Part shown: positions 1-27,800 of the stretch, piece after piece
Layout of the letters: each line of letters starts with the position of its first letter
Numbering within the stretch: the first letter of the stretch is position 1
Virus record (IMG/VR): IMGVR_UViG_3300007345_000150
Span: 1-31,535 of that record
Source: a virus
Reading direction: 5' to 3' (one strand)
DNA length: 31,535 nucleotides
Position numbers and translations under genes: made by a program
The notes under the pieces: generated by a model
What the model was told of the DNA's origin: nothing
The model's database searches: none
Seen by the model: only the letters and a program-made list of their open reading frames with translations

Positions 1-93
1 GATATTCATCTCAAAGGAAAGACAGCAGCTCGTCAAGCTAACGCTAGAATGGGCTACTACATAAAACAAGATTATGAGGTAAACATATTATGA
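1..93 (+). CDS. 3' end of an unidentified upstream gene (partial)
   Basis: An open frame enters from the left edge and ends at a TGA at 91-93, leaving only 30 C-terminal residues that end in KQDYEVNIL. The stop overlaps the next ATG (90-92) in an ATGA arrangement, which is typical of translationally coupled phage genes and is the main reason to call it real. The tail is basic (several Lys and Arg) with no recognisable motif. I cannot name the family from this fragment. Confidence 0.6.
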   Translation, partial: DIHLKGKTAARQANARMGYYIKQDYEVNIL

Positions 94-1007
94 CCGAAGA
101 AGGTGGAAGAAAAATAGAACTGAACATAGAAAAGATTAGGGAAATGAAACCTTATATTGCTACTCCAATGTATGGAGGTATGTGTACAGGACTGTATACT
201 AAATGTTTGATGGATATGACAGCAGTATTTATGAATCATGGTGTACAATCACAGATTTATTATTTATTTAATGAATCCTTAGTTACTAGAGCTAGAAATT
301 ATTGTGTGGCAAACTTTTTAAAGTCAGACGCAACACATTTATTTTTTATTGATAGTGATATATCTTGGAAAGCAATGGATGTAATGTATATGTTACATTT
401 AATTGCTGAAGCACAAGATACAGACGAACCTTTAAGAATATTTACAGGTTTGTACCCAAAGAAAACTATTGCTTGGGAAAAAGTTATGATGGCTGCGAAA
501 AGCGGACTGTATGACGATGACCCATCAAGATTATCTTTGATTGCTGGAGATATGGTATTTAATCCAGACCATGAAGCTTATCCGAATGGACAAGCACCAG
601 TATTTGAACCTGTAAAGGTTAGAGAAGCTGGAACTGGATTTATGATTATAGAAAGAAGTGTTTTTGAAGAATATGAAGAAGCATATCCTCAGTACAAGTA
701 CACTCCAGACCACCTTAGGGAAGGAGACTTTAAGCCAGGAGAACAAATCATGGCATACTTTGACTGTATAATCAACGAACAGAATAGATATTTGAGTGAA
801 GATTATATGTTCTGTGAAAATGTAAGGAAAATAGGGATAGATGTTTGGTCACTACCCATGGTTGAACTATTACATACTGGAACTTACACATTCCAAGGCA
901 ACTTAGTGCAGATGGCTGCAGCAGATGTTCATGCAACTATAGACCCTGAATACGCTAAAAAACTTGCTGATGGGAAAAATCAAGAGCAGGTCAAAAATAG
1001 TTCTTGA
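90..1007 (+). CDS. GT-A type glycosyltransferase (DxD)
   Basis: A 305-residue protein that looks like a nucleotide-sugar-dependent glycosyltransferase with a GT-A fold. The key signature is FFIDSDISW at about residues 85-93, where D88-S-D90 is a DxD metal/UDP-sugar site. It follows the segment NESLVTRARNYCVANFL (61-77), which is common in this group. A later acidic ED (about 235) and HTGTY could supply the catalytic base and a metal-binding His, but this is inference. Proteins of this type occur in marine tailed phages. Acceptor and sugar cannot be read from the sequence. The ATG overlaps the preceding stop. The TGA stop lies inside the -35 box of the next promoter, so this gene belongs to the upstream transcription unit, although read-through into the replication operon is possible. 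Confidence 0.75.
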   Translation: MTEEGGRKIELNIEKIREMKPYIATPMYGGMCTGLYTKCLMDMTAVFMNHGVQSQIYYLFNESLVTRARNYCVANFLKSDATHLFFIDSDISWKAMDVMYMLHLIAEAQDTDEPLRIFTGLYPKKTIAWEKVMMAAKSGLYDDDPSRLSLIAGDMVFNPDHEAYPNGQAPVFEPVKVREAGTGFMIIERSVFEEYEEAYPQYKYTPDHLREGDFKPGEQIMAYFDCIINEQNRYLSEDYMFCENVRKIGIDVWSLPMVELLHTGTYTFQGNLVQMAAADVHATIDPEYAKKLADGKNQEQVKNSS

Positions 1008-9721: not shown

Positions 9722-10381
9722 ATGGTAATTTATATTGGCTACGATTCAGAACAACCTGAAGCATACGAAGTATGTAAGGAAAGTATTTTAAGATACAATC
9801 GTAGCCATGTTATCAAACCATTAATACGTAGTGAATTAGAAGAAAAAGGAGTATACTGGAGACCGTTTCAAAATGAAAGTACAGAGTTTGCTTTCACTCG
9901 GTTTCTAGTACCTTATCTTTCTAAGTATGAAGGATATGCTTTATTTTGTGATAGTGATTTTATGTGGAGATGTGACCCTGCTGAATTATTTGATTTCATG
10001 GATATAGAATGGATGGATAATAGACTAGGTGTTTACTGTGTAAAACATCCCGACTTCATACCTCCAAATACAAAAATGAATGGCAAACTAAACTTAGACT
10101 ATCCTAAAAAGTATTGGTCATCTTTAATGTTATTCAATAACGCCCATTGTAAAGAGCTTACTAAAGAGCTTGTAAACCGAGCAGATGCGGGTTTTTTACA
10201 TGAGATGCTTTGGGCAGATGGTATTGGAAGTTTGCCTGCTGAATATAACGCAATGATAAATTATTATCAATTTAAAAATCCAAAAGCAGTTCACTTTACA
10301 GATGGTGGACCGTGGCATGGTATAAACGACAACGAGGAGTACTCCCAAGAATGGCAAGAGATATACAAAAAGATTCAGTAA
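9722..10381 (+). CDS. DxD glycosyltransferase, GT8-like
   Basis: A 219-residue protein with a GT-A-like layout. The N-terminal strand is VIYIGYDSEQPEAYEVCKESI, an Arg-containing helix (FAFTRFLVPYLSKYEG) follows, and then comes ALFCDSDFMW with D77-S-D79 as the metal/nucleotide-sugar motif. The C-terminal VHFTDGGPWHG supplies a His-Gly segment typical of GT8 metal ligation. The likely reaction is transfer of a sugar from a nucleotide donor; the acceptor is unknown. It is followed by a GT29-like gene whose start lies within its 3' end (31-nt overlap), and it faces the fibre/glycosyltransferase operon on the other strand, so a role in decorating virion or host glycans is plausible. Confidence 0.75.
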   Translation: MVIYIGYDSEQPEAYEVCKESILRYNRSHVIKPLIRSELEEKGVYWRPFQNESTEFAFTRFLVPYLSKYEGYALFCDSDFMWRCDPAELFDFMDIEWMDNRLGVYCVKHPDFIPPNTKMNGKLNLDYPKKYWSSLMLFNNAHCKELTKELVNRADAGFLHEMLWADGIGSLPAEYNAMINYYQFKNPKAVHFTDGGPWHGINDNEEYSQEWQEIYKKIQ

Positions 10382-10998
10382 TATTAGTAGGAAACTCTGT
10401 AGAAATATTGCAACATAATTATGGAGAGTACATAGATAGTTTTGACCATGTTGTTCGCTTTGGCCAAGGAGTACCTAGAAAAGATATTTCAAAATCCGTA
10501 GGGTCAAAAACAGATTTTTGGGTCACAGGTTGGTTAAGAAAAAATTATTGGCATCATTTTCCAAATGCGGAGATTCTATTTAATCGTAGTAGAATCCACT
10601 TGAATGTAGAGCCAGACCTAGACCTGCCGTTTGATGATTATACGATTATGTTTTCCGATGAAGAACTTTTAAAGATTTTTGCTCAGATAGGGGCGGAGTC
10701 TAATAAAGCCACAAAAGGTGCAAGGCCTTCTGCTGGATTTCTCGGTATTTTATATTTTCTCACAAAACTCAAATGTGAAAATATTACATTGATTGGATTC
10801 GATTTCTTTTCAAAGAAATTACCAATATTCTCTGGAGGCAATCAGCCCTCTAGTTGGCATATCCCTTTTAATAGTGCGAGCGTAAATCCACACAACCCTC
10901 ATGAAAAGGGTTGGGTATGGAAATGGTATAAAGAAGGGAAGTTAGATTGGAAAATCTTATCTGACTTAAAAGACGAGCAACTAGACCTTACCCAATGA
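10351..10998 (+). CDS. GT29 sialyltransferase-like glycosyltransferase
   Basis: A 215-residue protein with the hallmarks of family GT29. A sialylmotif L-like block is at about residues 10-55: VILVGNSVEIL, then IDSFDHVVRFG, then VGSKTDFW. A sialylmotif S-like block is at about 124-150: GARPSAGFLGILYFL to CENITLIGFDFF. A VS-like H(x)3E is at 181-185 (HNPHE). In GT29 enzymes these motifs bind CMP-sialic acid and carry the catalytic His. Donor identity in a phage protein is inference and could be another CMP-linked sugar. I place the start at ATG 10351, after GAGGAG (11-nt spacer), in preference to an upstream GTG at 10312. The 3' end overlaps the convergent gene by 18 nt. Confidence 0.78.
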   Translation: MARDIQKDSVILVGNSVEILQHNYGEYIDSFDHVVRFGQGVPRKDISKSVGSKTDFWVTGWLRKNYWHHFPNAEILFNRSRIHLNVEPDLDLPFDDYTIMFSDEELLKIFAQIGAESNKATKGARPSAGFLGILYFLTKLKCENITLIGFDFFSKKLPIFSGGNQPSSWHIPFNSASVNPHNPHEKGWVWKWYKEGKLDWKILSDLKDEQLDLTQ

Positions 10999-11916
10999 AA
11001 ATCCTGCTGTAATTAATTTACCAGCAGCAGCTTTTTGTTTATTCGACTTAATTAAAATCTTTTCATTTAATCTTCCGTCTTTAAATCTAGCTGGAATCTT
11101 TTCCATTAGTGGAGTGTATAAATCCCAAGGTATACTTAATTGTAAACCTGTTCTACACTCATAGTAATCTCTTTCTAATAAGTAACTTGGTATATCTAAG
11201 TTATATGCTTTTCTTAACATAATATTATAATTAATACAATCCATCGCTCCAAGAGCATCTAATTCTATTAAAGGGTCTACTTTGCCGTGCATATAAATAG
11301 GCATCTTACTTGTTTCTATAGTTTTAAAGTAAGTTGTTATTTGTTCATCTCTTGCATGATTTATGTAAGCATCAAGATCATGTTCCCATTTATATTTTTG
11401 AATAGGAGGAGTGCCATCTTTCATAAATAGTTCAGATTCTGTCATGTTTTCTAACTCATTCCAGTTCCATATTAAGAAAGAAGTGTCTACTTTATATCCA
11501 CCAATCTGACCCAGTATACTATAGTAAGTTTTAAAAATACCATGATTATGAAAAGTATTTCTAGAAGTTGTTGCAACTAACTTTTTAAACCAAGAATTAG
11601 GTGGTAGTTGATTTCCTATAAGTTCTTTTGTAAATATAGGTGCGCGTGTATAGCTTTGTACAATTTTGTTTATTTTACCTTTACCCATCCAATGTCTTTT
11701 AAACTGTAAAATCTGTTTTGCAGCTACATGGGTATCGTAAGGAGCTTGATATACTTGTACGTTATCAAAACTCTGTATGAGCCAATCTGCAACATCTTGG
11801 TCGTAGTCGTTGTCATTCATAAATACATGCAAACGAAACTTCTCTGTTTTATCCAACAAAGAGGCAAACGTAAACATTGAGTATTTAGGGTGGTATCTAA
11901 GTAATATTTCTATCAT
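10981..11916 (-). CDS. Uncharacterised protein, possible glycosyltransferase
   Basis: A 311-residue protein I do not recognise with confidence. The N-terminus MIEILLRYHPKYSMFTFASLLDKTEKFRLHVFMNDND resembles the first strand-helix-strand of a GT-A fold ('...FASLL...KTEKFRLHVFMND'), but no clear DxD motif follows. Other features are an aromatic region around 100-150 and an acidic-aromatic stretch, LIWNWNELENMTESELF. The C-terminus is basic. It is the last gene of the leftward fibre operon. Its ATG overlaps the preceding stop (ATGA), which ties it to the KPHP-type gene upstream. Context suggests sugar modification of a virion component. Its last 18 nt overlap the convergent GT29 gene. Confidence 0.6.
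   Translation of the reverse strand: MIEILLRYHPKYSMFTFASLLDKTEKFRLHVFMNDNDYDQDVADWLIQSFDNVQVYQAPYDTHVAAKQILQFKRHWMGKGKINKIVQSYTRAPIFTKELIGNQLPPNSWFKKLVATTSRNTFHNHGIFKTYYSILGQIGGYKVDTSFLIWNWNELENMTESELFMKDGTPPIQKYKWEHDLDAYINHARDEQITTYFKTIETSKMPIYMHGKVDPLIELDALGAMDCINYNIMLRKAYNLDIPSYLLERDYYECRTGLQLSIPWDLYTPLMEKIPARFKDGRLNEKILIKSNKQKAAAGKLITAGFSLGKV
11004..11036 (+). terminator. Possible rho-independent terminator of the rightward operon
   Basis: CTGCTG (11004-11009) pairs with CAGCAG (11022-11027). The stem can be extended by GTAA/TTTA-type pairs with one bulge, and a TTTTT run starts at 11032. It lies 5 nt after the GT29 stop, inside the 3' end of the convergent gene on the other strand. The stem is short and the T-run is 4 nt from the stem, so this is only a moderate call. 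Confidence 0.4.
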
Positions 11917-12806
11917 TTTGTTTTATAATCCCAAAAGTTTTCCTGGTAAAGATACATTCTTTCTTCTGCATCTTCATCGAAGTCAAATATCATTCCTGAC
12001 CTCTTGCTTGATAATATTTTAAGTAAAGCTTCTGTTGAGTTTCGTACATCTGGTTGTGATATTGCATGATATACCGCTTCATAGGTAAGAGGTTGTTTTT
12101 CTCTTGCGCTATATGGCGTTGAAACTAAACTTAATTGTTTATCTAATAATAATGCTATAATACCCATTTCACTGTTAGGGCATACTGCAGCTTCTTTGCA
12201 GTTAAGTAATACTTCAAAACCACCTTCCTTGTGTCCTAGGACATTTTCTTCTCCTAGTTCCATCTTTAATTTTGCTCTCCAAAGATGTGCTGTTATTGGA
12301 TGTGGTTTTACTTTAAATCCTCTATCTACATGGTCTTTCATTCTTCTCCAAGATACAACGTTTTTATTCATTAAGTTGCTTCCTGGCGGGAAAATAACTT
12401 TTTCAGGAAACTCTTGTGGAGTTTGCAAAGTATATTTATTATGTAGATTTTCTCTTATTTTTTCTATTCTATCCCAATCAATCTCTTTCTCTCTAAGAGC
12501 AATTGAATGTAGTAGATTGTTATTTATTAATATGGAATTAACTCTAATATAAATCCCATTTCCTAAAAAATCTGTATATAACCAGCTTCTAATAGAGTAC
12601 CTTTCATTAGTATTAAACCAAAGGTCATACTCAAAAGGCAATCCTCTATAATCTCTAGGAATTATTCTCTTCTTAAACTCTGCTAGTCGGTTTAAATCCT
12701 CTTTAGGTCTAAAACACGAACCTGACTTCATTACATGAGTAGGAATATCTCCAAGGCTTTCGTTAATAGTCATGGCATCTATTGGATTTTTAGATTTAAC
12801 TGCCAT
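11913..12806 (-). CDS. Capsule-polysaccharide-synthesis-like / GT-B type protein (KPHP motif)
   Basis: A 297-residue protein. The C-terminal half carries GFKVKPHPITAHL (about 175-187), then LLNCKEAAVCPNSEMGIIALLLDKQLSLV (about 210-238). The order of a KPHP motif, a 'llxC..av.xNSe.g..Alll.k' block and a closing hydrophobic strand matches the nucleotide-sugar domain of capsule polysaccharide export/synthesis proteins (KpsS/KpsC-like) and related GT-B enzymes. An earlier VIFPPGSN may begin the domain. Exact activity is unknown. It lies in the leftward fibre operon after the Thr-rich fibre and overlaps the 58-aa gene before it by 11 nt and the gene after it by 4 nt, so it is co-translated with them. 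Confidence 0.6.
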   Translation of the reverse strand: MAVKSKNPIDAMTINESLGDIPTHVMKSGSCFRPKEDLNRLAEFKKRIIPRDYRGLPFEYDLWFNTNERYSIRSWLYTDFLGNGIYIRVNSILINNNLLHSIALREKEIDWDRIEKIRENLHNKYTLQTPQEFPEKVIFPPGSNLMNKNVVSWRRMKDHVDRGFKVKPHPITAHLWRAKLKMELGEENVLGHKEGGFEVLLNCKEAAVCPNSEMGIIALLLDKQLSLVSTPYSAREKQPLTYEAVYHAISQPDVRNSTEALLKILSSKRSGMIFDFDEDAEERMYLYQENFWDYKTK

Positions 12807-12972
12807 TTTGTTTTAACTCAAATATTATTTTTTCTAAGTTTTTTACTCTTTCCTCGTATTCACCGATACTTTCAAAGAAAGCACTCATCATGCTTTCCAT
12901 TTTTTTATTTAAATAATCTGTATCGACCTTAGTTCGTTCATTTAAAGGAACTTTTGTATCTTGTATTGACAT
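12796..12972 (-). CDS. Small coiled-coil-like protein after the Thr-rich fibre
   Basis: A 58-residue ORF begins at ATG 12972-12970 and ends at TAA 12798-12796. It fills the gap between the Thr-rich fibre and the KPHP gene exactly: its ATG overlaps the fibre stop by 1 nt (TAATG) and its end overlaps the next gene by 11 nt. The N-terminal half is charged (MSIQDTKVPLNERTKVD). The C-terminal half, FFESIGEYEERVKNLEKIIF, has heptad-spaced hydrophobics and predicts a coiled coil. The position after a fibre gene suggests a fibre chaperone, trimerisation or attachment factor, but this is inference. Its composition is ordinary and unlike the repetitive fibre. Confidence 0.75.
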   Translation of the reverse strand: MSIQDTKVPLNERTKVDTDYLNKKMESMMSAFFESIGEYEERVKNLEKIIFELKQNGS

Positions 12973-15900
12973 TATGTCTCACTCCATTTTGAGCCATCCC
13001 AGAAGGAGAATCCATAATCTGCATCACTTGTAACTTCAGTGTCAAATAAGGTTCCAGCTGAGCTGGCGGTTAATCTTTCAAATATCGACGTTTGTGTTAA
13101 AGTTTGAATCGTCGTTAAATGGTCTGTTGTAATTGTTGTAAGTGTTGACTTACTTGTATTAAATGTTGTAGTTGTTGTGACCGTGGTATTAAAGGTTGTG
13201 GTAATAGTTGTATTAAATGTTGTTGTAGTACCAAAACCTGTTGTAGTTGTAATTGTTGTATTATATGTTGTTGTTGTACTTCTAACTGTCTCTGTACTTT
13301 TTGTTGTGTTAAAAGTAGATACCGTATCTCTACTTGTTTCTGTAGTTCTTTGTGTATTAAATGTAGTAACAGTTGCTCTACTTGTAAGTGTTGACTTACT
13401 TGTATTAAATGTAGTTGTTCTATTTGTTTCAAATACAGTAGTTGTACTTCTAGATGTTCCAGTATTTCTAGAACTTGCTCTTGAAGTTTGGAAAGCTGTT
13501 TCAAATGTAGTTGTTCTACTAGTAGCTGTATTTACAGCGAATGTTGTTACAAAAGAGGTATTAGCTGCAAATGTTGTTTGAGTACTTCTTGAAGTAGTGG
13601 TACCTAATGATGTATTTGTATTTACACCAAATGTTGTTTGAGTATTTCTTGAAGTAGTAGTACCTAATGATGTATTTGTGTTTACTCCGAACGTACTTAC
13701 AGTAGTTTTTGAAGTAGTGGTACCTAATGATGTATTTGTATTTACACCAAATGTTGTTATAAAAGAGGTTGCTCCTACAAAGTTTGTAACAGTTGACACA
13801 GAAGTAGTTGTATTTCTTGTTGTACTTACACTTGTATTTGTATTTGCAGCAAATGTTGTTATAAATGCAGTATTAACATTAGGCAATGCTGTTTGTCTAG
13901 AAGTATTTGTACTTCTACTTGTGCTTACACTTGTATTTGTATTTGCCGCGAATGTTGTTACAAATGCAGTATTTGCAGCGAATGTTGTAGCTACACTTGT
14001 ATTTGTACTATTTGTAAATCCTGTACTTACTGATGTATTTGTAGCTACTGCTGTATTTGTATTTGCAGCAAATGTTGTTGTTCTACAAGTAGTAGTAGCG
14101 TTAGTAAATCCTGTACTTACCGAGGTATTAGTATTTACTGCGGTGTTTGTATTTACGGCAAATTGTGTCATTCTCGAAGTTGTAGTAGCGTTAGTAAATG
14201 ATGTATTAACAGTATAGTTTGTTAGATTCGTAAATGCAGTAGTAATATTCGGTAACGCTGTACCATAACTTGTAGTTGTTCCTCTAGATGTATTTGTAGA
14301 TGCAACTGGTAGTGCTGTTAATCTAGTAGTATTATATCCTGTATTTCTAGCTGTATTAGTGTTTCTTGCAGTATTTGTTGCTACAGCGAATGTTGTAAGA
14401 ACGGCAAGTAGTGCAGTATTTCTTGTTGTTCCTACTGCTGTATTTGTATTTCTACTCTCTGTGAAAAAGTCAAAGGATGTTTCGTATTGCTCTTCACAGA
14501 AGTAAGCAATTGTATTAACTAAGAATACAGTTAGGTTAGTACCTGCAGTATTATATGCTGTAGATCTTGATGTATTTGTTCCTACAGATGTATTTGTATT
14601 ATTCGTAAATCCTGTAGAGTTTGTAAAACCTGTTGACCTAGTTGTTCCGTATGCTGTATTTCTACAAGTATTTGTATTATTTGTAAAGCTAGTAGTGACG
14701 TTTACATTTGTTGCTCTAGAAGTAGTAGTTGCTCTGCCTGTGTTTGTATTATTACAAGTAGTCGTTCCTACAGATGTATTTGTATTTACATCTGGCAGTC
14801 CTGTTTGTCTAGATGTAGTAGTACTATTCGTAAATCCTGTACTAACAACAAATGTTGTTGTTCTTGCTGTGTTAGTATTTACATTTGGCAGTCCTGTTTG
14901 TCTAGATGTAGTAGTACTATTCGTAAATCCTGTATTAACACCAAATGTTGTTGTTCTTGCTGTGTTAGTATTTACAGCAGGGTATGCTGTATTTCTAGAA
15001 GTAGTGGTACCTCTACTTGTGCTTACTGATGTATTTGTACTTGCTGTAAATGTAGTTATAAAAGCTGTATTTACAGCGAATGTTGTTTTTCTTGAAGTTG
15101 TTGTTGCTCTTGATGTACTTACTGATGTATTTGTGCTATTTGTAAATGTTGTAATAAAACTTGTAGCTGCTGTAAAGTTGGAAATAGTTGATATAGATGT
15201 ATTTGTATTTCTCGTTGTACTTACACTTGTATTTGTACTATTTGTAAATGTTGTAGTTGCTGCAAAGTTTGTAATAGTTGATATAGAAGTATTCGTTGCA
15301 TTACTAAATGTTGTAACTGCCGCAAAGTTTGTAAGAGTTGTTATAGAAGTATTCGTTGCATTACTAAATGTTGTAACTGCTCCAAAGTTTGTAACAGTTG
15401 CTATGGAGGTTGTTGTTCCTCTTGATGTACTTACTGATGTATTTGTACTATTTGTAAAACCTGTGTTTCTTGACGTAGCAATTACTGTGTCAAAGAATGT
15501 TGTATAGGCGGTTACAGTTGTATATGCAGTAACAGTAGCTAATGTAGTATTAAATGTAGTTACTCTACTTGTTTCAAAAGTCGTAGTTGTACTGAATGTA
15601 GTAGTAGTAGTTAATGTAGTGTTAAATGTTGTTGTAGTACCAAAACCTGTTGTAGTTGTAATGGTAGTGTTAAATGTTGTAGTTGTACTAAATACAGTAT
15701 CTGTTGCTCTACTTGTGTTAAAAGTAGATACTGTATCTCTAGTTGTTTCTGTAGTTCTTTGTGTATTAAAGGTAGATACTCTAGAAGTGTTAAATGTAGA
15801 GATAGTATCTCTTGTAGTATTAAATATTGTTGTAGTATTAAAGGAAGTTTCCTGAGTACCAGAAATATAAGTTGTATTAGTATTGGTATTTCTATCAGTG

Positions 15901-16043
15901 ACAAATACGGCTTCAAAAGGGCCTGCTAATGTCCCATTATCATTTACGTATACTTCGTTGATACGACGAAGTGTTCCACCGTCATTGATGGCAAGGAAGT
16001 CGATAGTTCGTAAACTACCGTTGTCATTGATATATAACGCCAT
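12972..16043 (-). CDS. Thr/Asn/Ser-rich repetitive tail-fibre-like protein
   Basis: A 1,023-residue protein. The N-terminus (1-45) has three imperfect 14-residue repeats of the form (Y)INDNGSLR, each with an N-D-(N/G)-G-(S/T)-L core. This looks like a small virion-anchoring domain. From about residue 60 to 960 the protein is built of short Thr-dominated repeats such as TFNTTRDTIST and VNTNTSVSTSR, with polar/hydrophobic alternation suggesting a beta-solenoid or extended beta fibre. By eye Thr is over a third of residues, with Asn, Ser, Val, Ala, Phe and Arg making up most of the rest. A non-repetitive island with Cys and acidic residues (FLVNTIAYFCEEQYETSF, about 503-520) interrupts it. The last 50 residues (ending FSFWDGSKWSET) return to a normal composition. 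It is probably the receptor-contacting fibre. Repeats of 20 and 31 aa show recent internal duplication. Confidence 0.8.
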   Translation of the reverse strand: MALYINDNGSLRTIDFLAINDGGTLRRINEVYVNDNGTLAGPFEAVFVTDRNTNTNTTYISGTQETSFNTTTIFNTTRDTISTFNTSRVSTFNTQRTTETTRDTVSTFNTSRATDTVFSTTTTFNTTITTTTGFGTTTTFNTTLTTTTTFSTTTTFETSRVTTFNTTLATVTAYTTVTAYTTFFDTVIATSRNTGFTNSTNTSVSTSRGTTTSIATVTNFGAVTTFSNATNTSITTLTNFAAVTTFSNATNTSISTITNFAATTTFTNSTNTSVSTTRNTNTSISTISNFTAATSFITTFTNSTNTSVSTSRATTTSRKTTFAVNTAFITTFTASTNTSVSTSRGTTTSRNTAYPAVNTNTARTTTFGVNTGFTNSTTTSRQTGLPNVNTNTARTTTFVVSTGFTNSTTTSRQTGLPDVNTNTSVGTTTCNNTNTGRATTTSRATNVNVTTSFTNNTNTCRNTAYGTTRSTGFTNSTGFTNNTNTSVGTNTSRSTAYNTAGTNLTVFLVNTIAYFCEEQYETSFDFFTESRNTNTAVGTTRNTALLAVLTTFAVATNTARNTNTARNTGYNTTRLTALPVASTNTSRGTTTSYGTALPNITTAFTNLTNYTVNTSFTNATTTSRMTQFAVNTNTAVNTNTSVSTGFTNATTTCRTTTFAANTNTAVATNTSVSTGFTNSTNTSVATTFAANTAFVTTFAANTNTSVSTSRSTNTSRQTALPNVNTAFITTFAANTNTSVSTTRNTTTSVSTVTNFVGATSFITTFGVNTNTSLGTTTSKTTVSTFGVNTNTSLGTTTSRNTQTTFGVNTNTSLGTTTSRSTQTTFAANTSFVTTFAVNTATSRTTTFETAFQTSRASSRNTGTSRSTTTVFETNRTTTFNTSKSTLTSRATVTTFNTQRTTETSRDTVSTFNTTKSTETVRSTTTTYNTTITTTTGFGTTTTFNTTITTTFNTTVTTTTTFNTSKSTLTTITTDHLTTIQTLTQTSIFERLTASSAGTLFDTEVTSDADYGFSFWDGSKWSET
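13213..13361 (-). repeat. 149-nt direct repeat, C-terminal copy in the fibre
   Basis: This block pairs with 15622-15770 without indels at an offset of 2,409 nt (803 codons). About 41 nt at one end are identical, the last ~50 nt differ at about two positions, and the middle has diverged. Both copies encode TFNTQRTTET.RDTVSTFNT followed by TTITTTTGFGTTTTFNT. Confidence 0.8.
13561..13760 (-). repeat. 60-nt tandem repeats (20 aa x about 3)
   Basis: Near-identical copies start at 13591, 13651 and 13711, each exactly 60 nt apart. They encode successive GVNTNTSLGTTTS(K/R)..-type units of 20 residues. The high nucleotide identity points to recent tandem duplication within the fibre gene. Confidence 0.85.
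14790..14990 (-). repeat. 93-nt tandem repeat (31 aa x 2)
   Basis: The word GGCAGTCCTG recurs at 14794 and 14887, 93 nt apart, within nearly identical flanks. The two units encode VNTNTARTTTF..STGFTNS and a closing RQTGLP(N/D). They differ at only a few positions. Confidence 0.8.
15622..15770 (-). repeat. 149-nt direct repeat, N-terminal copy in the fibre
   Basis: Partner of 13213-13361. The offset is a whole number of codons (803), so recombination between copies would remove the central fibre in frame and keep both end domains. Confidence 0.8.
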
Positions 16044-16272: not shown

Positions 16273-19200
16273 TTATACCTCTATTGTTGTTCTAATGAAC
16301 TTATAACTCATGCTATCTGCTGAAGCAGGAGTCACTCTTAATCTTACATTACCACCATTTATATCTGCATCAAATGTTGCTTGTGCACCATTGTCAAATA
16401 TAGAAGCGTATTGTGTTAAATAAACTGTTGTTCCATCATGGAACATAACTATTTCTAGTGATTGATAATCTGAATCCGTTGTATTATGTACTTGTACTAA
16501 GTACTTAGCAGTTCTAAATGTAGCTGCTGCAAAACTGTCTAGTGTAAATTGTGTAGTTGCTGATGAAGTTCCTGAACCTACATCCATACCAGCTACTTCG
16601 TCTATGTGAAGTTTTTGTGGTGGATTACTGTCTTGTATACCTATCTTATCTGCTTGTAATCTTGTAGTAGCATTAAGTGTTGGTATTACTTGAGTTCCAG
16701 TAAATGTTTGGTTCAAAGCGCCACTTGTTATTTCACTTGTTCCTATACTGTTTGCTGCAATCTCACTTGACCCAACAGCGTTAGCGGCTATTTTAGCTGC
16801 TGTTACAGAGTTAGCTCCTAGTTTTGCATTTGTTACTTGTAAGTTTGCAATATGTGCTGTATCAATACTACCATCTACATAATGTTCTGAATTGATACTG
16901 TCATCTGCTATTTTTGTACCATTTACTATATCTGCGGCTAAATGTATTCTATCTATACTTCCTGTAGCAATTTCAGAACTATCTATTGCGTTTGCAGCTA
17001 TCATTGCTGAGCCTACTGCATTCCCTGCTATTTTTGAACCTGTTACAGCGTTATCTGCTATTTTACCATTCGTAACATTTGCATCTAGTATCTTTGCTGT
17101 TACTACAGAATCAGAAGCTAATTTAGCTGAAGTTACTTGTAAGTTTCCAATGTGGATAGTATCTATACTACCAGAAATTAATTCTGCTGAATCTACTGAG
17201 TTGGAAGCTAATTCACTTGAACCAACTGCTCCTGCAACAATAGCTGCGGCTCCTACAGAGTCCGTTGCTATTTTATTTGTTGTTACTGCATTATCTGCAA
17301 TGTGTATAGTATCTATACTACCAGTAACAAGTTCGCTTGAATCTATTGAGTTCGCTGCTATTTTACTTCCTACTACTGCATTGTTTGCTATATGAATTGC
17401 GTCAATAGACCCACTTACTATTTCACTGGAGTCCACTGAGTTTGCTGCTAAATCACCTGCTGCAATAGTTCCATTTGCTATCAAGTCTGATGTAATTAAA
17501 CCGCTTGAAATAAAGTTTACACTATTAATAGCATTGTCCGCTATTTTAGCACTTGTTACAGAGTCAGAAGCTAAGTGAATTGCATCTATGCTACCACTTA
17601 CTAATTCTGCACTGTCCACAGTATTCGCTGCTAAACTTGTTGATAAAGCAACTGCACCTGAGCCGTTAAAGTTAACACCTGAAGCTGTTACATCTCCTGT
17701 TAGAGAGAAAGCTCTATTTGTTGCTAAAGTAGTAGCTGTATCGGCATTACCTGTTAAATCACCAGTAACATCTCCTTCTACATTAGCTATTATTGTTCCT
17801 GTTGTAATTGTTAAGTCACCTGTAGAAGCACCAGTAAATGTACCAGTACCTACTTTAAACTTATTTGCACTCTCATCAAAACCTATAAATGCATTATTTT
17901 GGTCGCCTCTTTCTATAACGATACCTGCATCATTTGCTGGAGTACCTGTTGTTCCTGTACCAAGTTCCATTAATGGATCAGCAATTGTTGTGGTTGTTGA
18001 ATTAACTGTTGTGGTTGTTCCGTTTACTGTTAAGTTACCTGATAATGTTACATTACCTGTAAAAGTTTGTCCACCAAGTGCACTACTTGCTAGTTCACTT
18101 GTCCCAACAGAGTTCGCAGCTAGTTCACTAGAATCTACTGCTCCAGCAGCTATGTGTCTAGCTAAAACTTGGTCTGTGGCAATTTTTGCAGAAGTAATAT
18201 TATTTGCTGCTATTTTTGCTGTTGTTACTTGAGAAGTTCCAATGTGTATAGTATCTATACTACCACTTACTAATTCTGCAGAATCTACTGAGTTTGCAGC
18301 TATTTGTAATGCACCTACTGCATCAGTTGCTATTTCTGATGAGCCAATTGTATTTTCTGCTATATGTCTTGAAACTACAGAGTTACTAGAGATTTTAGTG
18401 CCATCGATAGCATTATCTGCAATATTTCCTGTTGCAATAGTATTTGCTGCTATATCTCCTGAAACAATAGTACCGTTTGCAATATGGTCTGAAGATATTA
18501 CTTCTGAAGGAAGTTTACTTGCTGTAATAGCATTATCAGCTATTTTTGCTGTTGTAACTTGTGCCGCACCTATATGTATTGTATCAATACTGCCACTTAC
18601 TAATTCTGCAGAATCTACTGAGTTTGCAGCTATTTTATCTGCTGTTACAGAATCCGTTGCTAAGTGAATTGCATCTATTGAACCACTTACTAATTCTGCA
18701 GTATCTACAGAGTTTGATGCAAGTTCAGAAGCACCTACTGCAGCTGCTCCTATATGTCTTGCTTGAATACTATCTGTAGCTATTTTTGTTCCGTCTATTG
18801 CGTTATCCGCTACATTTCCTGTTGCGATAGTATTAGCAGCTATTTTAGCTGAAGTTATTTGTAAGTTTCCAATATGTGCTGTATCAATACTACCGTCTAC
18901 TAAATGTTCTGAATCTATTGAGTCATCTGCTATTTTAGCACCTGTTATTGCATCTCCAGCTATTTTTGCTGTAGTAACTTGTAAAGCCCCTATGTGTATT
19001 GTGTCGATAGAGCCAGTAATTAATTCTGCGCTGTCAACACTGTTTGCTGCGAGTTGAGTGCTAGTAATACTCCCATCAGCAATATGATGAGCAGTAATCT
19101 GATTTTGAGCAATCTTCGCTGTTGTAACTGCATTGCCTGCTATTTCTGAAGAGCCTATTACTCCTGTTCCAATTTCTGCGGAAGTAATAGCATTAGCGGC

Positions 19201-19536
19201 TATTTTAGCTGTTGTAATTTGTCCTGTGCCTATATGTATAGTGTCTATTGACCCACTTACTATTTCACTAGAATCTACTGAGTTTGCAGCTATAGATGCT
19301 GCATCTATTGAATTATCTGCTACTGCTGTGATAGCTGATGCTTGTAACTGTGCTGAACCAATAGCATTAGTAGCAATCTCTGATACTCCGACAGCGTTTG
19401 CTGCGATTTCACTAGAGCCTACTGCATTTGCTGCTATTTCGCTTGCAGTAATAGAATTACTTACTATTTCAGTAGTTCCGACTGCATTGGCCTCCAATAC
19501 GGAGACTAAATGATTTTCCTTACCTATTAATGCCAT
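16273..19536 (-). CDS. Decapeptide-repeat tail fibre protein
   Basis: A 1,087-residue fibre. Residues about 10-485 and 632-940 consist of roughly 10-residue repeats, for example SEIAANAVGS, then units of the type NSVDSAELVSGSIDTIHIG and QVTTAKIADNAIT. The regular I/V spacing suggests a beta-helical or trimeric beta fibre. Between them is a non-repetitive module (about 487-632) with TFTGNVTLSGNLTVNGTTTT, a middle part ending GFDESANKFKVGTG, and ending DVTGDLTGNADTATTLA, a type common in marine phage structural proteins. After TFTGTQVIPTLNA (about 945) comes a compact C-terminal domain rich in beta strands (KYLVQVHNTTDSDYQSLEIV) that may be a receptor-binding or trimerisation tip. It is in the leftward operon 1 nt upstream of the 74-aa gene. 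Confidence 0.82.
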   Translation of the reverse strand: MALIGKENHLVSVLEANAVGTTEIVSNSITASEIAANAVGSSEIAANAVGVSEIATNAIGSAQLQASAITAVADNSIDAASIAANSVDSSEIVSGSIDTIHIGTGQITTAKIAANAITSAEIGTGVIGSSEIAGNAVTTAKIAQNQITAHHIADGSITSTQLAANSVDSAELITGSIDTIHIGALQVTTAKIAGDAITGAKIADDSIDSEHLVDGSIDTAHIGNLQITSAKIAANTIATGNVADNAIDGTKIATDSIQARHIGAAAVGASELASNSVDTAELVSGSIDAIHLATDSVTADKIAANSVDSAELVSGSIDTIHIGAAQVTTAKIADNAITASKLPSEVISSDHIANGTIVSGDIAANTIATGNIADNAIDGTKISSNSVVSRHIAENTIGSSEIATDAVGALQIAANSVDSAELVSGSIDTIHIGTSQVTTAKIAANNITSAKIATDQVLARHIAAGAVDSSELAANSVGTSELASSALGGQTFTGNVTLSGNLTVNGTTTTVNSTTTTIADPLMELGTGTTGTPANDAGIVIERGDQNNAFIGFDESANKFKVGTGTFTGASTGDLTITTGTIIANVEGDVTGDLTGNADTATTLATNRAFSLTGDVTASGVNFNGSGAVALSTSLAANTVDSAELVSGSIDAIHLASDSVTSAKIADNAINSVNFISSGLITSDLIANGTIAAGDLAANSVDSSEIVSGSIDAIHIANNAVVGSKIAANSIDSSELVTGSIDTIHIADNAVTTNKIATDSVGAAAIVAGAVGSSELASNSVDSAELISGSIDTIHIGNLQVTSAKLASDSVVTAKILDANVTNGKIADNAVTGSKIAGNAVGSAMIAANAIDSSEIATGSIDRIHLAADIVNGTKIADDSINSEHYVDGSIDTAHIANLQVTNAKLGANSVTAAKIAANAVGSSEIAANSIGTSEITSGALNQTFTGTQVIPTLNATTRLQADKIGIQDSNPPQKLHIDEVAGMDVGSGTSSATTQFTLDSFAAATFRTAKYLVQVHNTTDSDYQSLEIVMFHDGTTVYLTQYASIFDNGAQATFDADINGGNVRLRVTPASADSMSYKFIRTTIEV

Positions 19537-24826: not shown

Positions 24827-27800
24827 TATGAACTATCCGAAATTAAAATCCTTTGATTAGTTGAATCAATTACAATGTTTGCGCTTGATATTGCAGATGA
24901 ATTAATAGTCCATCCCCCAACGCTACCACCAGTTTTTGCTCCGCCTGCCAAGGTATTTGTATTAGCCGCTGTGTTAGCTTGGGCTAAAGTAGCTTTTGTT
25001 CCTGCTAAAGTAGAAGCATTGGCTGCTGCATTAGAAGCATCACTTGTAGAAGTATTCATAGCTGCTGTATTAGGGAAAGATTCAATCTGTCCTATTGTTA
25101 CAGTTGCAGCTGATATGTCTCCTTTAAAGAAAGCGTTACCTGCAGTATCTATATAAAATTGTTTTGCATGTATTGAGCCACCACTATTTAAAGTAATACC
25201 ACCAGTAGTATACCCACTTGTATCTTTTGTTCCACTATAGATTGCAGATGAATCAATAGTCCATCCCCCTACTGAGCCTCCTGTTTTGGCTCCATTTGAC
25301 AATATGTTTGTATTAGCTGCTGTATTCGCTTGTGATAAAGTAGCTTTACTATTTGCTGTATTTTGTGCAGCTGAAGCTGAGTTAGCTGCTGAATTAACTG
25401 AATCTGAAGTAGCTCCGCCTGCCTCTGTTACAGAATCTATGGTTATACTTCCTTTAAAGAAAGCATTTCCACTTGTATCTATATAAAATTGTTTTGCATG
25501 TATTGAGCCGGCACTATTTAAAGTAATACCACCAGTAGTATACCCATTTGTATCTTTTGTTCCACTGTAAATTGCGCTACTGTCAATAGTCCAGCCACCC
25601 ACACTACCACCAGTTTTAGCCCCGTTTGATAGTATGTTTGTATTAGCTGCTGTATTCGCTTGTGATAAAGTAGCTTTACTATTTGCCGTATTTTGAGCAG
25701 CTGAAGCTGAGTTAGCCGCAGCTGAAGCTGCAGCTGCTGCTCCTACTTCTGCTTCAATAGTAGAAGCTGCTGTTGCTCCTATTTGTACAGATTGCCCTAT
25801 AGCTAATGTTCCATTAGCACTATAGAACTTAATAAACTTGTTTCCTGAATCTTGTCCAATATTTACATTACCAGCACCATCAAAGTATACTCCTAAGTCT
25901 CCGTCTGCAAAGGTTGTTTTATTTGCTGTAACAAACTTACCATTATCTCCACTTGTTCCAAGTTGAATTGTATTTGCTATGTTTGCTCTATTTGTAAATG
26001 TAGTGTTTGCGCTTAATCTATTTGCTTGTAATGTTCCTTCAACGATTACTGAGCCGTCAAAAGTTTCTACTACTAAAGAACTGAAGTTTGCTGCTGTTAT
26101 TGAACCTGATGAAGTAGCTGCGGAGCCATTATATATTCTTGTACCTGCTACATCTGCACTATTGTCTGTTACTGTTATTCTATCATTTGGTCTTATTGTA
26201 CTGTCGCTAGCATTTGCTATTACAGCTGAAGCTACTGCTTGTGCGGAGGCATTATTAAGAGTACCTGCAAACTTACTTGCTTGTGCTGCTGATATTTGTG
26301 AAGTATCACTTTCTTCAAAAGTAAAGATACTTGAACCTCTAACCCCATCAACACCTATGCTACCAGCATTTACTTTTACAAAATTAAGTGTTTTTACTGC
26401 TACTGTTACGCCACCTGAATTATCGATAATAGGAATAGTTGTGCTACCTGTAAGAGTTGAACCACTTCCTATAGCTGAGTTTGCATTAAGAGAAATTACT
26501 CCACTTGCTGATACAGCTGAACTTACATTTACATCTGTTCTTGTTCCATATCTAAAACTATTTGCAGTATAAGGAGAAGTTGCATCATAAGTATATGCCT
26601 GACTTCCTTTAAATACTGTTGGACTTGAACTAAAAGTTGTAAAATCGCTAATTGTTCCGCTACTATTTGCATCAAAAGCGTGTGATTCATTTGTAAAAAC
26701 TACAGTATATGCATCTACTCCTGGTGCTCCATTATCTCCTTCAATTGATTTAGATAATGATTGTATTTTTGTAAATGTAAACTCATTACCATCACTATTT
26801 TTGACTGTAATAGTATAAGTTACTTTTGCATTATCTGCAGTCATGGAGTTATGTACTCCAAATCTTCTTGTGTATGTTGAAACAGTACTTGCAGTTCCTA
26901 CTCCAACACTAGTACCTGAAGCAGATACTCTGAAAGAAGGAGAAGCATAAGGAGAGCTTCCATCATAAGGAACTTGAGTTGTTCCGTCGTATACTACAAT
27001 ATCTGTTCCCGAATCAGTATAAGTTACTACTCCCGCATTTGTGGTTGGAAGTGTGTGTGCCTCATTAGATAATATAACAGTTATCGCATCTGCACCATTA
27101 TCACCGTCTGTTCCGTTTGTTCCGTTTGTTCCGTCTGTTCCAGGTTTTACACCGTACACTGTTAATTGGTCTCTAGCTTTAATTGCTGCAGAGCCACTAT
27201 CTCTAATTTGAACTTCTATTTTATCAGGCATATTGCTGAAAGAAGATTGAGGTGTGTATGTGTAAGTATTTGTAGTAGTATTTGCCTGACTTACATCATT
27301 TAAGAAAAACTCGTAATATACAGTTCCATCTGTATTTAATGCAGTAGCTGTTACTGTTGTACTTGAAGGAGAAGGAGTGCTTCCTGTATTTGCATAGGTA
27401 AATGCTTGGTCACCTATAGTTAAGTTTACTGTTCTTGAATCTACTCCTGCTGAGCCATTTGCACCATTTGCACCTGGTAGTCCGTCTGCTCCTTTCTCTC
27501 CACTAGCAAAATTAACTAAAGAGAATGTACCTCCAGTATTTAGTACTGAAGCTATTACAGTATCTTTCTGTCTATCGAATCTTAATGATTGTGCAAATAA
27601 GTTAGCTCCTGAGTATGTTCTGTCAGAGCCACTAGCTACAGTCATTGAAGTATCATTTTCAATATGTGCTACTCTTGCCCAAAAACGAGAAGCTCCAGCA
27701 TCGTCTAATATTACTAAGTCCCCTGCTCTAAAGTCCGATAAAAATGTTGTGGAAGACCCAACTACATTTGAACTAAATCTTTCTAAACTAAAAGTACCAT

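Follow-up and report, generated by a model that had tools for sequence, protein, structure and literature searches.

Why would a virus carry, beside a threonine-rich fibre, a group of four glycosyltransferase genes? The question is raised by a stretch of 31,535 nucleotides (IMG/VR virus record IMGVR_UViG_3300007345_000150, positions 1 to 31,535), analysed as a whole and referred to here as the window, in which the genes and fibre segments concerned are arranged as follows:

9722..10381, plus strand: GT8-like GT-A enzyme of 219 aa with a DxD motif (phrog_28018, motif)
10351..10998, plus strand: GT29 (sialyltransferase)-like protein, 215 aa counted from the ATG (PF00777 match)
10981..11916, minus strand: GTx, 311 aa, predicted GT-A fold, GT8/GT24-like (AF2 model, fold matches)
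11913..12806, minus strand: KPHP glycosyltransferase, 297 aa, putative core enzyme of the module (PHROG match, AF2 model, fold, motif)
12972..16043, minus strand: Thr-repeat fibre, 1,023 aa (ORF list, composition and repeat statistics, 78 related loci)
12975..13121, minus strand: fibre head at the C-terminus, approximately residues 975-1023, which relatives conserve (partial matches)
13122..15893, minus strand: Phi-x-Thr repeat region of the fibre, about residues 51-974 (repeat statistics, tandem repeats in the DNA)
15894..16043, minus strand: N-terminal fibre anchor, approximately residues 1-50, with three copies of an NDGG-type motif ahead of the repeats (sequence; the label is our own)
16273..19536, minus strand: tail fibre gene immediately preceding that of the repeat fibre (phrog_892)

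This layout agrees with that of a first-pass annotation, which had described a 1,023-aa fibre dominated by Thr, Ser and Asn (measured here as T 35.3%, N 11.3%, S 10.4%), followed on the same strand by a KPHP-type and a second glycosyltransferase gene, with a GT8-like and a GT29-like gene converging from the other strand. For the GT29-like gene, the longest ORF starts at GTG 10312 (to 10998), and the alternative ATG at 10351 appears the likelier start. The gene preceding the repeat fibre matches phrog_892 (tail fiber, E 5.6e-111), its top row being phrog_13518, a family of no known function. A terminator scan revealed no minus-strand terminator-like site between the fibre and KPHP genes, with which their placement on one transcript would be consistent, short of proof.

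The fibre had been proposed to receive O- or N-linked glycans, in view of its many N-x-S/T triplets. The triplets are indeed present (61), but their number barely exceeds that obtained in shuffles (52.6 +/- 5.1) and they are thus mostly a product of composition. Together with the finding of a single extended bacterial sequon (D/E-x-N-x-S/T), this led to rejection of the N-linked option, leaving O-linkage to Thr as the favoured prediction. The arrangement of the threonines departs much more clearly from chance, with 158 occurrences of [FYRWLIVKMH]-x-T versus 94.6 in shuffles (z 9.6). Of the 74 gaps of at most 20 residues between successive [FYRW]-x-Thr motifs, 67 are even (a fraction of 0.44 in shuffles). 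The strongest Thr periodicity is 6 rather than 4, meaning that the repeat unit is not one fixed tetrapeptide. The fibre has no PHROG match at E 0.01, yields no Pfam row other than PF06042, which is below the cut-off (E 0.11), and found no match in INPHARED by tblastn, the latter probably a result of low-complexity filtering since phage DLP_6 does carry the repeat. Some relatives match the fibre solely at its C-terminal head (residues 974-1022 or 983-1023). Inspection by eye shows this ending in locus L321 as well, and N-termini resembling the anchor in L321 and L326.

The enzyme encoded immediately downstream, KPHP, matches phrog_26179 (function not known, E 3.8e-39). Its AF2 model (m71919b66d8ba, pLDDT 86.9) has as nearest folds, among the families listed in the fold searches, KpsC (VIA Z 10.0 over 214 residues, rmsd 4.3), WbbB (8.9), KrkA (8.7) and a polysialyltransferase (8.0), and Foldseek gave two rows only at E <= 0.001, including WbbB (E 5.8e-4). 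The predicted fold is therefore described as GT-B-like, with moderate similarity (Z 8-10) to CMP-Kdo and polysialic-acid transferases. Passages of PMC12887879 give (K/R)xHP as the CMP-binding motif of the retaining beta-Kdo transferases, with Ser in place of K/R in KrkA, and a figure of about 220 Da for Kdo. A [KR]xHP motif is found in 79/79 complete KPHP representatives. Compared with GT99 (WbbB), GT107 (KpsC) and GT140 (KrkA), KPHP thus shares the overall fold (Z 8.7-10.0) and this motif, but differs in that the QxxxD nucleophile of the retaining Kdo transferases, its site judged from sequence, is not conserved among the 79 proteins: the strand before KxHP mostly reads FLPG[ST/H]N, and a Q...D within 45 residues upstream of KxHP occurs in 10/79 at variable distances. 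Because of this, the donor and the stereochemistry are not fixed by the likeness of fold. Family profiles gave little (PF05159 in 1/26 members, E 0.038), a PDB profile search returned nothing useful, and neither of two scans of bacterial genomes confirmed a KPHP relative.

The three accompanying enzymes are of other kinds. GTx, for which a GT-A type had been considered possible, does have a GT-A fold in its AF2 model (pLDDT 89.3, pTM 0.87), its nearest structures among the families listed in the fold searches being GlyE (VIA Z 15.5 over 221-223 residues, rmsd 4.0), WbbM (15.3) and LgtC (14.8), with UGGT found by Foldseek (E 4.9e-7); tblastn with GTx in INPHARED gave no match. The GT29-like protein exceeds the PF00777 cut-off (43.8 bits versus 23), has a profile match to the alpha-2,3-sialyltransferase 2wml (E 0.0087) and belongs to a set of 26 sequences displaying GN[ST].E (26/26), [RK]PS[AT]G (20/26) and H...E (19/26), which are residues of L- and S-motif-like type; it differs from GT29 sialyltransferases in being short and in coming from a bacterial virus. 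The GT8-like protein matches phrog_28018 (function not known, E 3.2e-48) and conserves D-x-D[FYL] in 19/19 aligned members, PF01501 being recognized in 3/19 (best E 0.0012) and not in the window protein itself. PDB profile searches with GTx and the GT8-like protein returned nothing useful, and PF05704 was absent from the window's own record, but also from the controls, which makes this result uninformative. A role in antiphage or host defence was also considered and rejected, as PADLOC detected nothing in five of the proteins and NCBIfam nothing in ten.

Comparative genomics had been suggested as a check on whether these enzymes accompany Thr-rich fibres. Among close relatives of the window virus (78 fibre loci, six of which end inside the fibre, each count including only loci with enough downstream DNA), the fibre is followed by KPHP in 72/72, GTx in 72/72, the GT29-like gene in 65/65 and the GT8-like gene in 38/38, and the order of all four is the same wherever the contig reaches. 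Beyond this clade, at least 292 KPHP ORFs (5 of which, under 200 aa, were dropped) were reduced to 80 representatives at 90% identity, originating from the fibre scan (26), the A1 (16), A4 (9) and A5 (18) scans, named phages (7) and a pattern scan (4), so that 30 entered by routes not blind to the repeat. Nine had less than 1.5 kb upstream and were left unjudged; of the 71 assessable, 68 are preceded on the same strand, at no more than 1.5 kb, by a Thr-repeat ORF, among the matches listed (the KPHP scans contributed the best 80 of 204 and the best 80 of 328 matches, and two of 35 matching Vibrio records were examined). This dereplicated figure replaces an earlier 200/200 for KPHP ORFs with at least 500 nt upstream (215 in total), in which overlapping pieces of the same contig were counted repeatedly. 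At least one pair is present in each of the 18 clusters formed at 40% identity, and 13 of these were reached by KPHP searches alone, blind to the repeat; L326 (whose cluster also holds DLP_6), L346, L382 and L420 entered through the repeat-pattern scan. L382 had matched the pattern on the opposite strand by accident.

There are three exceptions: L243 and L249 have borderline repeat ORFs in the right place (17% Thr directly upstream, and 24% Thr with z 1.7, respectively), and DLP_6 has KPHP together with a repeat located elsewhere in the genome, at a distance of some 15 kb when its ends are taken as joined. The reciprocal search, starting from at least 120 stretches matching the pattern in DNA, left 11 ORFs within the length, Thr and run limits, of which five with mixed aromatic/basic units were kept by judgement as genuine repeats; four of these five records contain KPHP, the fifth being L316, a 26-kb fragment. 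Named pairs include Lullwater gp41 (with gp42 as KPHP), Quill_5.2, BL198, KVP40.0254 (with KVP40.0256), Vibrio D484 and Cr30. The pair is found in T7-like Caulobacter phages, Cr30 and KVP40, and recurs in Autographiviridae, Straboviridae and other records. The link between KPHP and the repeat is thus near-obligate across divergent phages. The expectation of co-occurrence is strongly upheld, above all for KPHP. Homologues of the GT8-like enzyme also occur in Mosig, ctDrO704, CcrColossus and S-SCSM2R, where no KPHP match was found and none of 1,451 ORFs was repeat-like under the same criteria (nearly whole records were covered, 855 of 141,461 bases in Mosig and 186 of 244,186 in S-SCSM2R being unread). 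The GT8-like gene is therefore not exclusive to the fibre.

What the paired ORFs have in common, and what defines the core module along with KPHP, is a repeat in which F/Y/R/W is followed at the second position by Thr, these units being an even number of residues apart (4, 6, 10). Over the 18 clusters, T/(T+S) at Phi+2 ranges from 0.75 to 0.98, versus 0.41-0.74 elsewhere in the proteins, and the even fraction of Phi-x-Thr spacings from 0.65 to 1.00, versus 0.39-0.50 in shuffles, values biased upward by the choice of ORFs for Thr content and Phi-x-T enrichment and calculated on every representative with a Thr-rich upstream ORF, beyond the 71. Cr30 presents hardly any Thr preference at Phi+2 (0.75 versus 0.73). 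In DLP_6 the repeat is fused behind a baseplate-wedge domain (E 2.3e-236), as it is in L316 (E 1.7e-132), and these fusions, together with PHROG matches and gene order, indicate that the repeat protein is probably structural.

The reading that best accommodates these data, to which a probability of roughly 0.6 is assigned, is that of a phage virion-decoration module, in which KPHP most likely glycosylates the Thr repeats of the virion using a host CMP-sugar and the other glycosyltransferases elaborate the product. The repeat domain would display successive threonines on one face of extended strands, to which KPHP would attach, before or during tail assembly, a CMP-activated acidic sugar, possibly Kdo or another nonulosonate, drawn from a Gram-negative host. 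Synthesis of the donor by the phage was rejected, given that CMP-sugar synthetase (PF02348) is absent from 18/18 phage records while being found in 11/14 control genomes; the donor would thus need to be supplied by the host. In the lineage of the window, GTx and the GT29-like and GT8-like enzymes would have been added to extend or cap the glycan, resulting in a bristle-like glycosylated fibre. We infer in this scheme the repeat as acceptor, the Thr linkage, the identity of the sugar, the order of the enzymes and the host of the window virus, as well as a role of the decorated fibre in adsorption, shielding or as a decoy.

The occurrence of a Thr-repeat tail-type protein beside a glycosyltransferase in unrelated kinds of phages suggests that they sugar-coat their own tail parts. 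A wider version can be put forward only tentatively, namely that KPHP represents a new glycosyltransferase family transferring a Kdo-like or other nonulosonic acid onto Thr of an evenly spaced Phi-x-Thr code, the repeat being a mobile tail domain placed on different virion anchors in unrelated phages to give tail parts an acidic coat.

The even spacing and the preference for Thr over Ser could instead reflect a structural need of beta strands and not an acceptor code. Beta-branched Thr alternating with aromatic residues or Arg on one face of long strands would produce the mostly even intervals and the Thr bias expected of a beta rod, with KPHP acting elsewhere or as an assembly factor; this purely structural explanation is judged unlikely, because it does not explain why the repeat should be coupled to a gene whose predicted product resembles glycosyltransferases in fold. 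It is also quite improbable that KPHP and its companions modify host surface glycans for superinfection exclusion or receptor masking, the repeat being a neighbour merely through a shared late tail region. This alternative, raised by the first-pass annotation, draws on the fact that the nearest KPHP folds (KpsC, WbbB, KrkA) make capsule or O-antigen glycans and that GT8-like homologues exist apart from the repeat. It is weakened by the presence of the repeat neighbour in 18/18 KPHP clusters with otherwise differing surrounding genes, since a host-surface enzyme would have no need of such a partner, and by the retention of both components in DLP_6 in spite of their separation. Least credible by far is that the enzymes glycosylate phage DNA, or hitch-hike within a single virus genus, unconnected with the fibre: the GT8-like and GT29-like genes do lie downstream of two plus-strand genes for putative ribonucleotide reductase subunits, yet KPHP and the repeat recur across families, and common ancestry inside a single genus does not account for the core pair.

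Decoration of the virion by its own phage would have partial precedents. In Gram-positive bacteria, Ser-rich repeat adhesins are low-complexity Ser/Thr surface proteins encoded beside their own glycosyltransferases and accessory secretion functions. The window resembles these systems in the adjacency of repeat protein and glycosyltransferase genes, and the top structural match of GTx is GlyE of Streptococcus pneumoniae; the adhesins are, however, bacterial and Ser-rich, whereas the fibre is viral and Thr-rich, and we know of no KPHP counterpart among them. In mycobacteriophages, a passage of PMC12619734, citing Freeman et al. 2023, places glycans at the C-termini of capsid and tail-tube subunits. 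The pairing of a glycosyltransferase gene with a structural gene, as in phage virion glycosylation, is present here both in the clade and across phages; glycans on virion structural proteins are predicted here too, and the predicted acceptor differs in being a dedicated Thr-repeat tail domain served by a CMP-sugar-type enzyme. No title describing the KPHP-repeat pair was found in the literature covered, to which subscription journals mostly do not belong. If the decoration reading is correct, Gram-negative phages, KVP40 included, would own a dedicated route to glycosylate tail parts, which would account for low-complexity tail-type proteins as a class that keeps recurring and would yield an acceptor sequence and an enzyme, a pair open to testing in E. 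coli K-12. The families phrog_26179, phrog_30602 and phrog_30374, all catalogued without a function, would then gain a suggested one.

The tail genes occupy the right part of the window (a 31,535-base viral record from IMG/VR) on the minus strand, the last two encoding a tail fibre and a Thr-rich protein. Every feature that the first-pass annotation had claimed for this region, a Thr-rich fibre with two same-strand glycosyltransferase genes and two converging ones, was present in the ORF map:

Minus strand: tail fibre, 1,087 aa, phrog_892
12972-16043, minus strand: Thr-rich repeat fibre, 1,023 aa
11913-12806, minus strand: KPHP, a candidate GT-B-like glycosyltransferase with a KxHP motif, directly after the Thr-rich fibre
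10981-11916, minus strand: GTx, a second candidate glycosyltransferase, following KPHP
10351-10998, plus strand: GT29-like gene, convergent toward KPHP/GTx
9722-10381, plus strand: GT8-like gene, convergent toward KPHP/GTx

The convergent 3' ends of GTx and the GT29-like gene overlap by 18 bases (10981-10998). Outside the cluster, a GT-A-like gene at 90-1007 (plus strand) matches phrog_1574 (unknown function, E 5.5e-51) and also the glycosyltransferase family phrog_34859 (E 0.00031). A tandem repeat (period 330, 1.8 copies) lies at 25120-25716, near the 3' end of the gene for a 2,217-aa tail protein.

The ordered element of the fibre is a Phi-x-Thr motif, in which Thr stands two residues after an aromatic or Arg-type residue (Phi, mainly F, Y, R or W). 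A wider Phi class gives 158 occurrences, where shuffles have 94.6, and successive motifs (Phi = F, Y, R, W) are an even distance apart in 67 of the 74 intervals of up to 20 residues (0.44 in shuffles), most commonly 6, 4 or 10 residues. The autocorrelation of all Thr is strongest at a distance of 6 residues (0.23) and slight at 4 (0.05), so that no single tetrapeptide can be the repeat unit. Even spacing along an extended strand would place these Thr and Phi residues all on one face. The many N-x-S/T triplets reported initially do exist, but they barely exceed what composition predicts (61 versus 52.6 +/- 5.1 in shuffled sequences). Some stretches of the repeat DNA are tandemly repeated (periods 18 to 93 bases), and repeat number and fibre length change fast, since the fibres of two viral loci measure 1,281 aa (L009) and 845 aa (L010) although their KPHP proteins are 97% identical.

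Scanning viral contigs with the fibre recovered 78 related loci. Counting for each gene only those loci whose contig extends far enough downstream, the fibre is followed by KPHP in 72/72, GTx in 72/72, the GT29-like gene in 65/65 and the GT8-like gene in 38/38, with order and orientation constant. Clustered at 90% identity, each gene of these relatives falls into between 19 and 26 groups; the median pairwise identity is 57% for KPHP and 39% for GTx. By itself, such conservation could reflect descent within one virus group. In seven relatives (L015, L018, L020, L021, L028, L029 and L054) the GT29-like and GT8-like genes are separated by an additional 1.4-2.2 kb or so, which may encode further enzymes.

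A wider survey used a broad KPHP profile (A5), from which the best 80 of 328 loci were taken. Dereplication at 90% identity left 80 of the 292 KPHP ORFs from all fetched loci as representatives, and 71 have 1.5 kb of upstream sequence. A repeat ORF (18% Thr or more, a Phi-x-T z greater than 2, same strand as KPHP) lies upstream in 68 of these 71, and the pair is present in all 18 clusters formed at 40% identity, 13 of which were reached by KPHP searches alone. Around the 80 representatives, 927 ORFs reach a length of 150 aa; only 74 of them qualify, KPHP neighbours included, so that most ORFs there lack such a repeat. In the reverse direction, a scan by repeat pattern gave at least five ORFs judged genuine, and among the matches listed KPHP was found in four of those five records, the exception (L316) being a 26-kb fragment. 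Four GT8-bearing control phages (Mosig, ctDrO704, CcrColossus and S-SCSM2R) yielded no KPHP match and no repeat-like ORF among 1,451. The expectation that glycosyltransferases accompany Thr-rich fibres is borne out above all for KPHP; GT8-like genes also occur where there is no repeat. In Caulobacter phage CcrColossus, giant tail genes precede one gene annotated as sialyltransferase-like, one GT8-like and one GT9 gene (L235:9614-14167).

Distant KPHP homologues occur in Stenotrophomonas phage DLP_6, Caulobacter phages Lullwater and Quill_5.2, BL198, Cr30 and KVP40-like Vibrio phages. In all six named phages opened besides DLP_6, a Phi-x-Thr repeat ORF immediately precedes KPHP or is one short gene away:

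Lullwater: gp41
Quill_5.2: gp41
BL198: gp046
KVP40: KVP40.0254
Cr30: 116 aa, the weakest case, z about 3
Vibrio phage D484: L240:6961-7491, unannotated

The public D484 record lists only shorter ORFs at this last position. KVP40.0254 matches phrog_30374 (unknown function), as does, weakly, the repeat ORF of locus L267. In DLP_6 the repeat occupies a large part of the C-terminal half of the baseplate-wedge protein P0004 (phrog_17744, E 2.3e-236), with KPHP at the opposite end of the linear record; the L316 repeat protein has the identical architecture.

Across clusters, T/(T+S) two residues after F/Y/R/W ranges from 0.75 to 0.98, and from 0.41 to 0.74 at other positions. It is higher at the motif position in 18/18 clusters (barely in Cr30, 0.75 versus 0.73), which points to position-specific use of Thr. 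The even-spacing fraction is 0.65 to 1.00, small clusters being based on 8 to 30 intervals. These statistics lean upward because Thr content and Phi-x-T enrichment helped to select the ORFs; spacing parity and Ser content played no part in the choice.

The KPHP model (pLDDT 86.9; residues 1-30 below 50) has KpsC, WbbB and KrkA as nearest structures (Z 10.0 to 8.7), followed by a polysialyltransferase (Z 8.0), all CMP-sugar enzymes; the only Foldseek matches with E <= 0.001 are two to WbbB. [KR]xHP is found in 79/79 complete KPHP representatives. According to PMC12887879, sialyltransferases and retaining Kdo transferases both have the CMP-binding motif (K/R)xHP, and the nucleophile motif of the latter is QxxxD. 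KPHP proteins share the former motif with the retaining Kdo enzymes but do not conserve the Q...D, the strand preceding KxHP reading mostly FLPG[ST/H]N, and for this reason KPHP was not classed among them. Fold and motif together suggest that KPHP acts in the manner of a CMP-sugar transferase. As for the other enzymes, GTx is modelled with a GT-A fold (GlyE, Z 15.5), the GT29-like gene exceeds the family cut-off of PF00777, and the GT8-like gene shows DxD in 19/19 aligned members with weak profile support.

KPHP is the sole glycosyltransferase that accompanies the repeat in every cluster, which makes it the best candidate for the enzyme modifying the peptide. L268-L271 and the wider clade to which the window belongs carry GTx together with KPHP. 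The GT29-like and GT8-like genes occur in the window's own clade and in L262-L263, and DLP_6 has both at a distance from KPHP. GTx and the GT29-like and GT8-like enzymes would extend the glycan. The baseplate fusions of DLP_6 and L316, together with the position of the repeat after genes annotated as tail fibres in Lullwater, Quill_5.2 and BL198, suggest that the repeat protein is located on the virion, where the glycan could serve adsorption, shielding or fibre stiffness. This virion-glycosylation reading as a whole is drawn from sequences and models. Its strongest rival holds that the Thr ladder is purely structural and that KPHP acts on something else, which the coupling of KPHP to the repeat makes less likely.

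Two scans of bacterial genomes produced 22 and 40 pattern matches, among which no KPHP relative could be confirmed, and a search of 18 phage records found no CMP-sugar synthetase; the sugar donor for KPHP is therefore presumably the host's. In Synechococcus phage S-SCSM2R, genes annotated as KdsB and KdsA come after the GT8-like homologue, separated from it by two hypothetical genes (L241:15001-18526), and are a possible phage-borne supply of CMP-Kdo.
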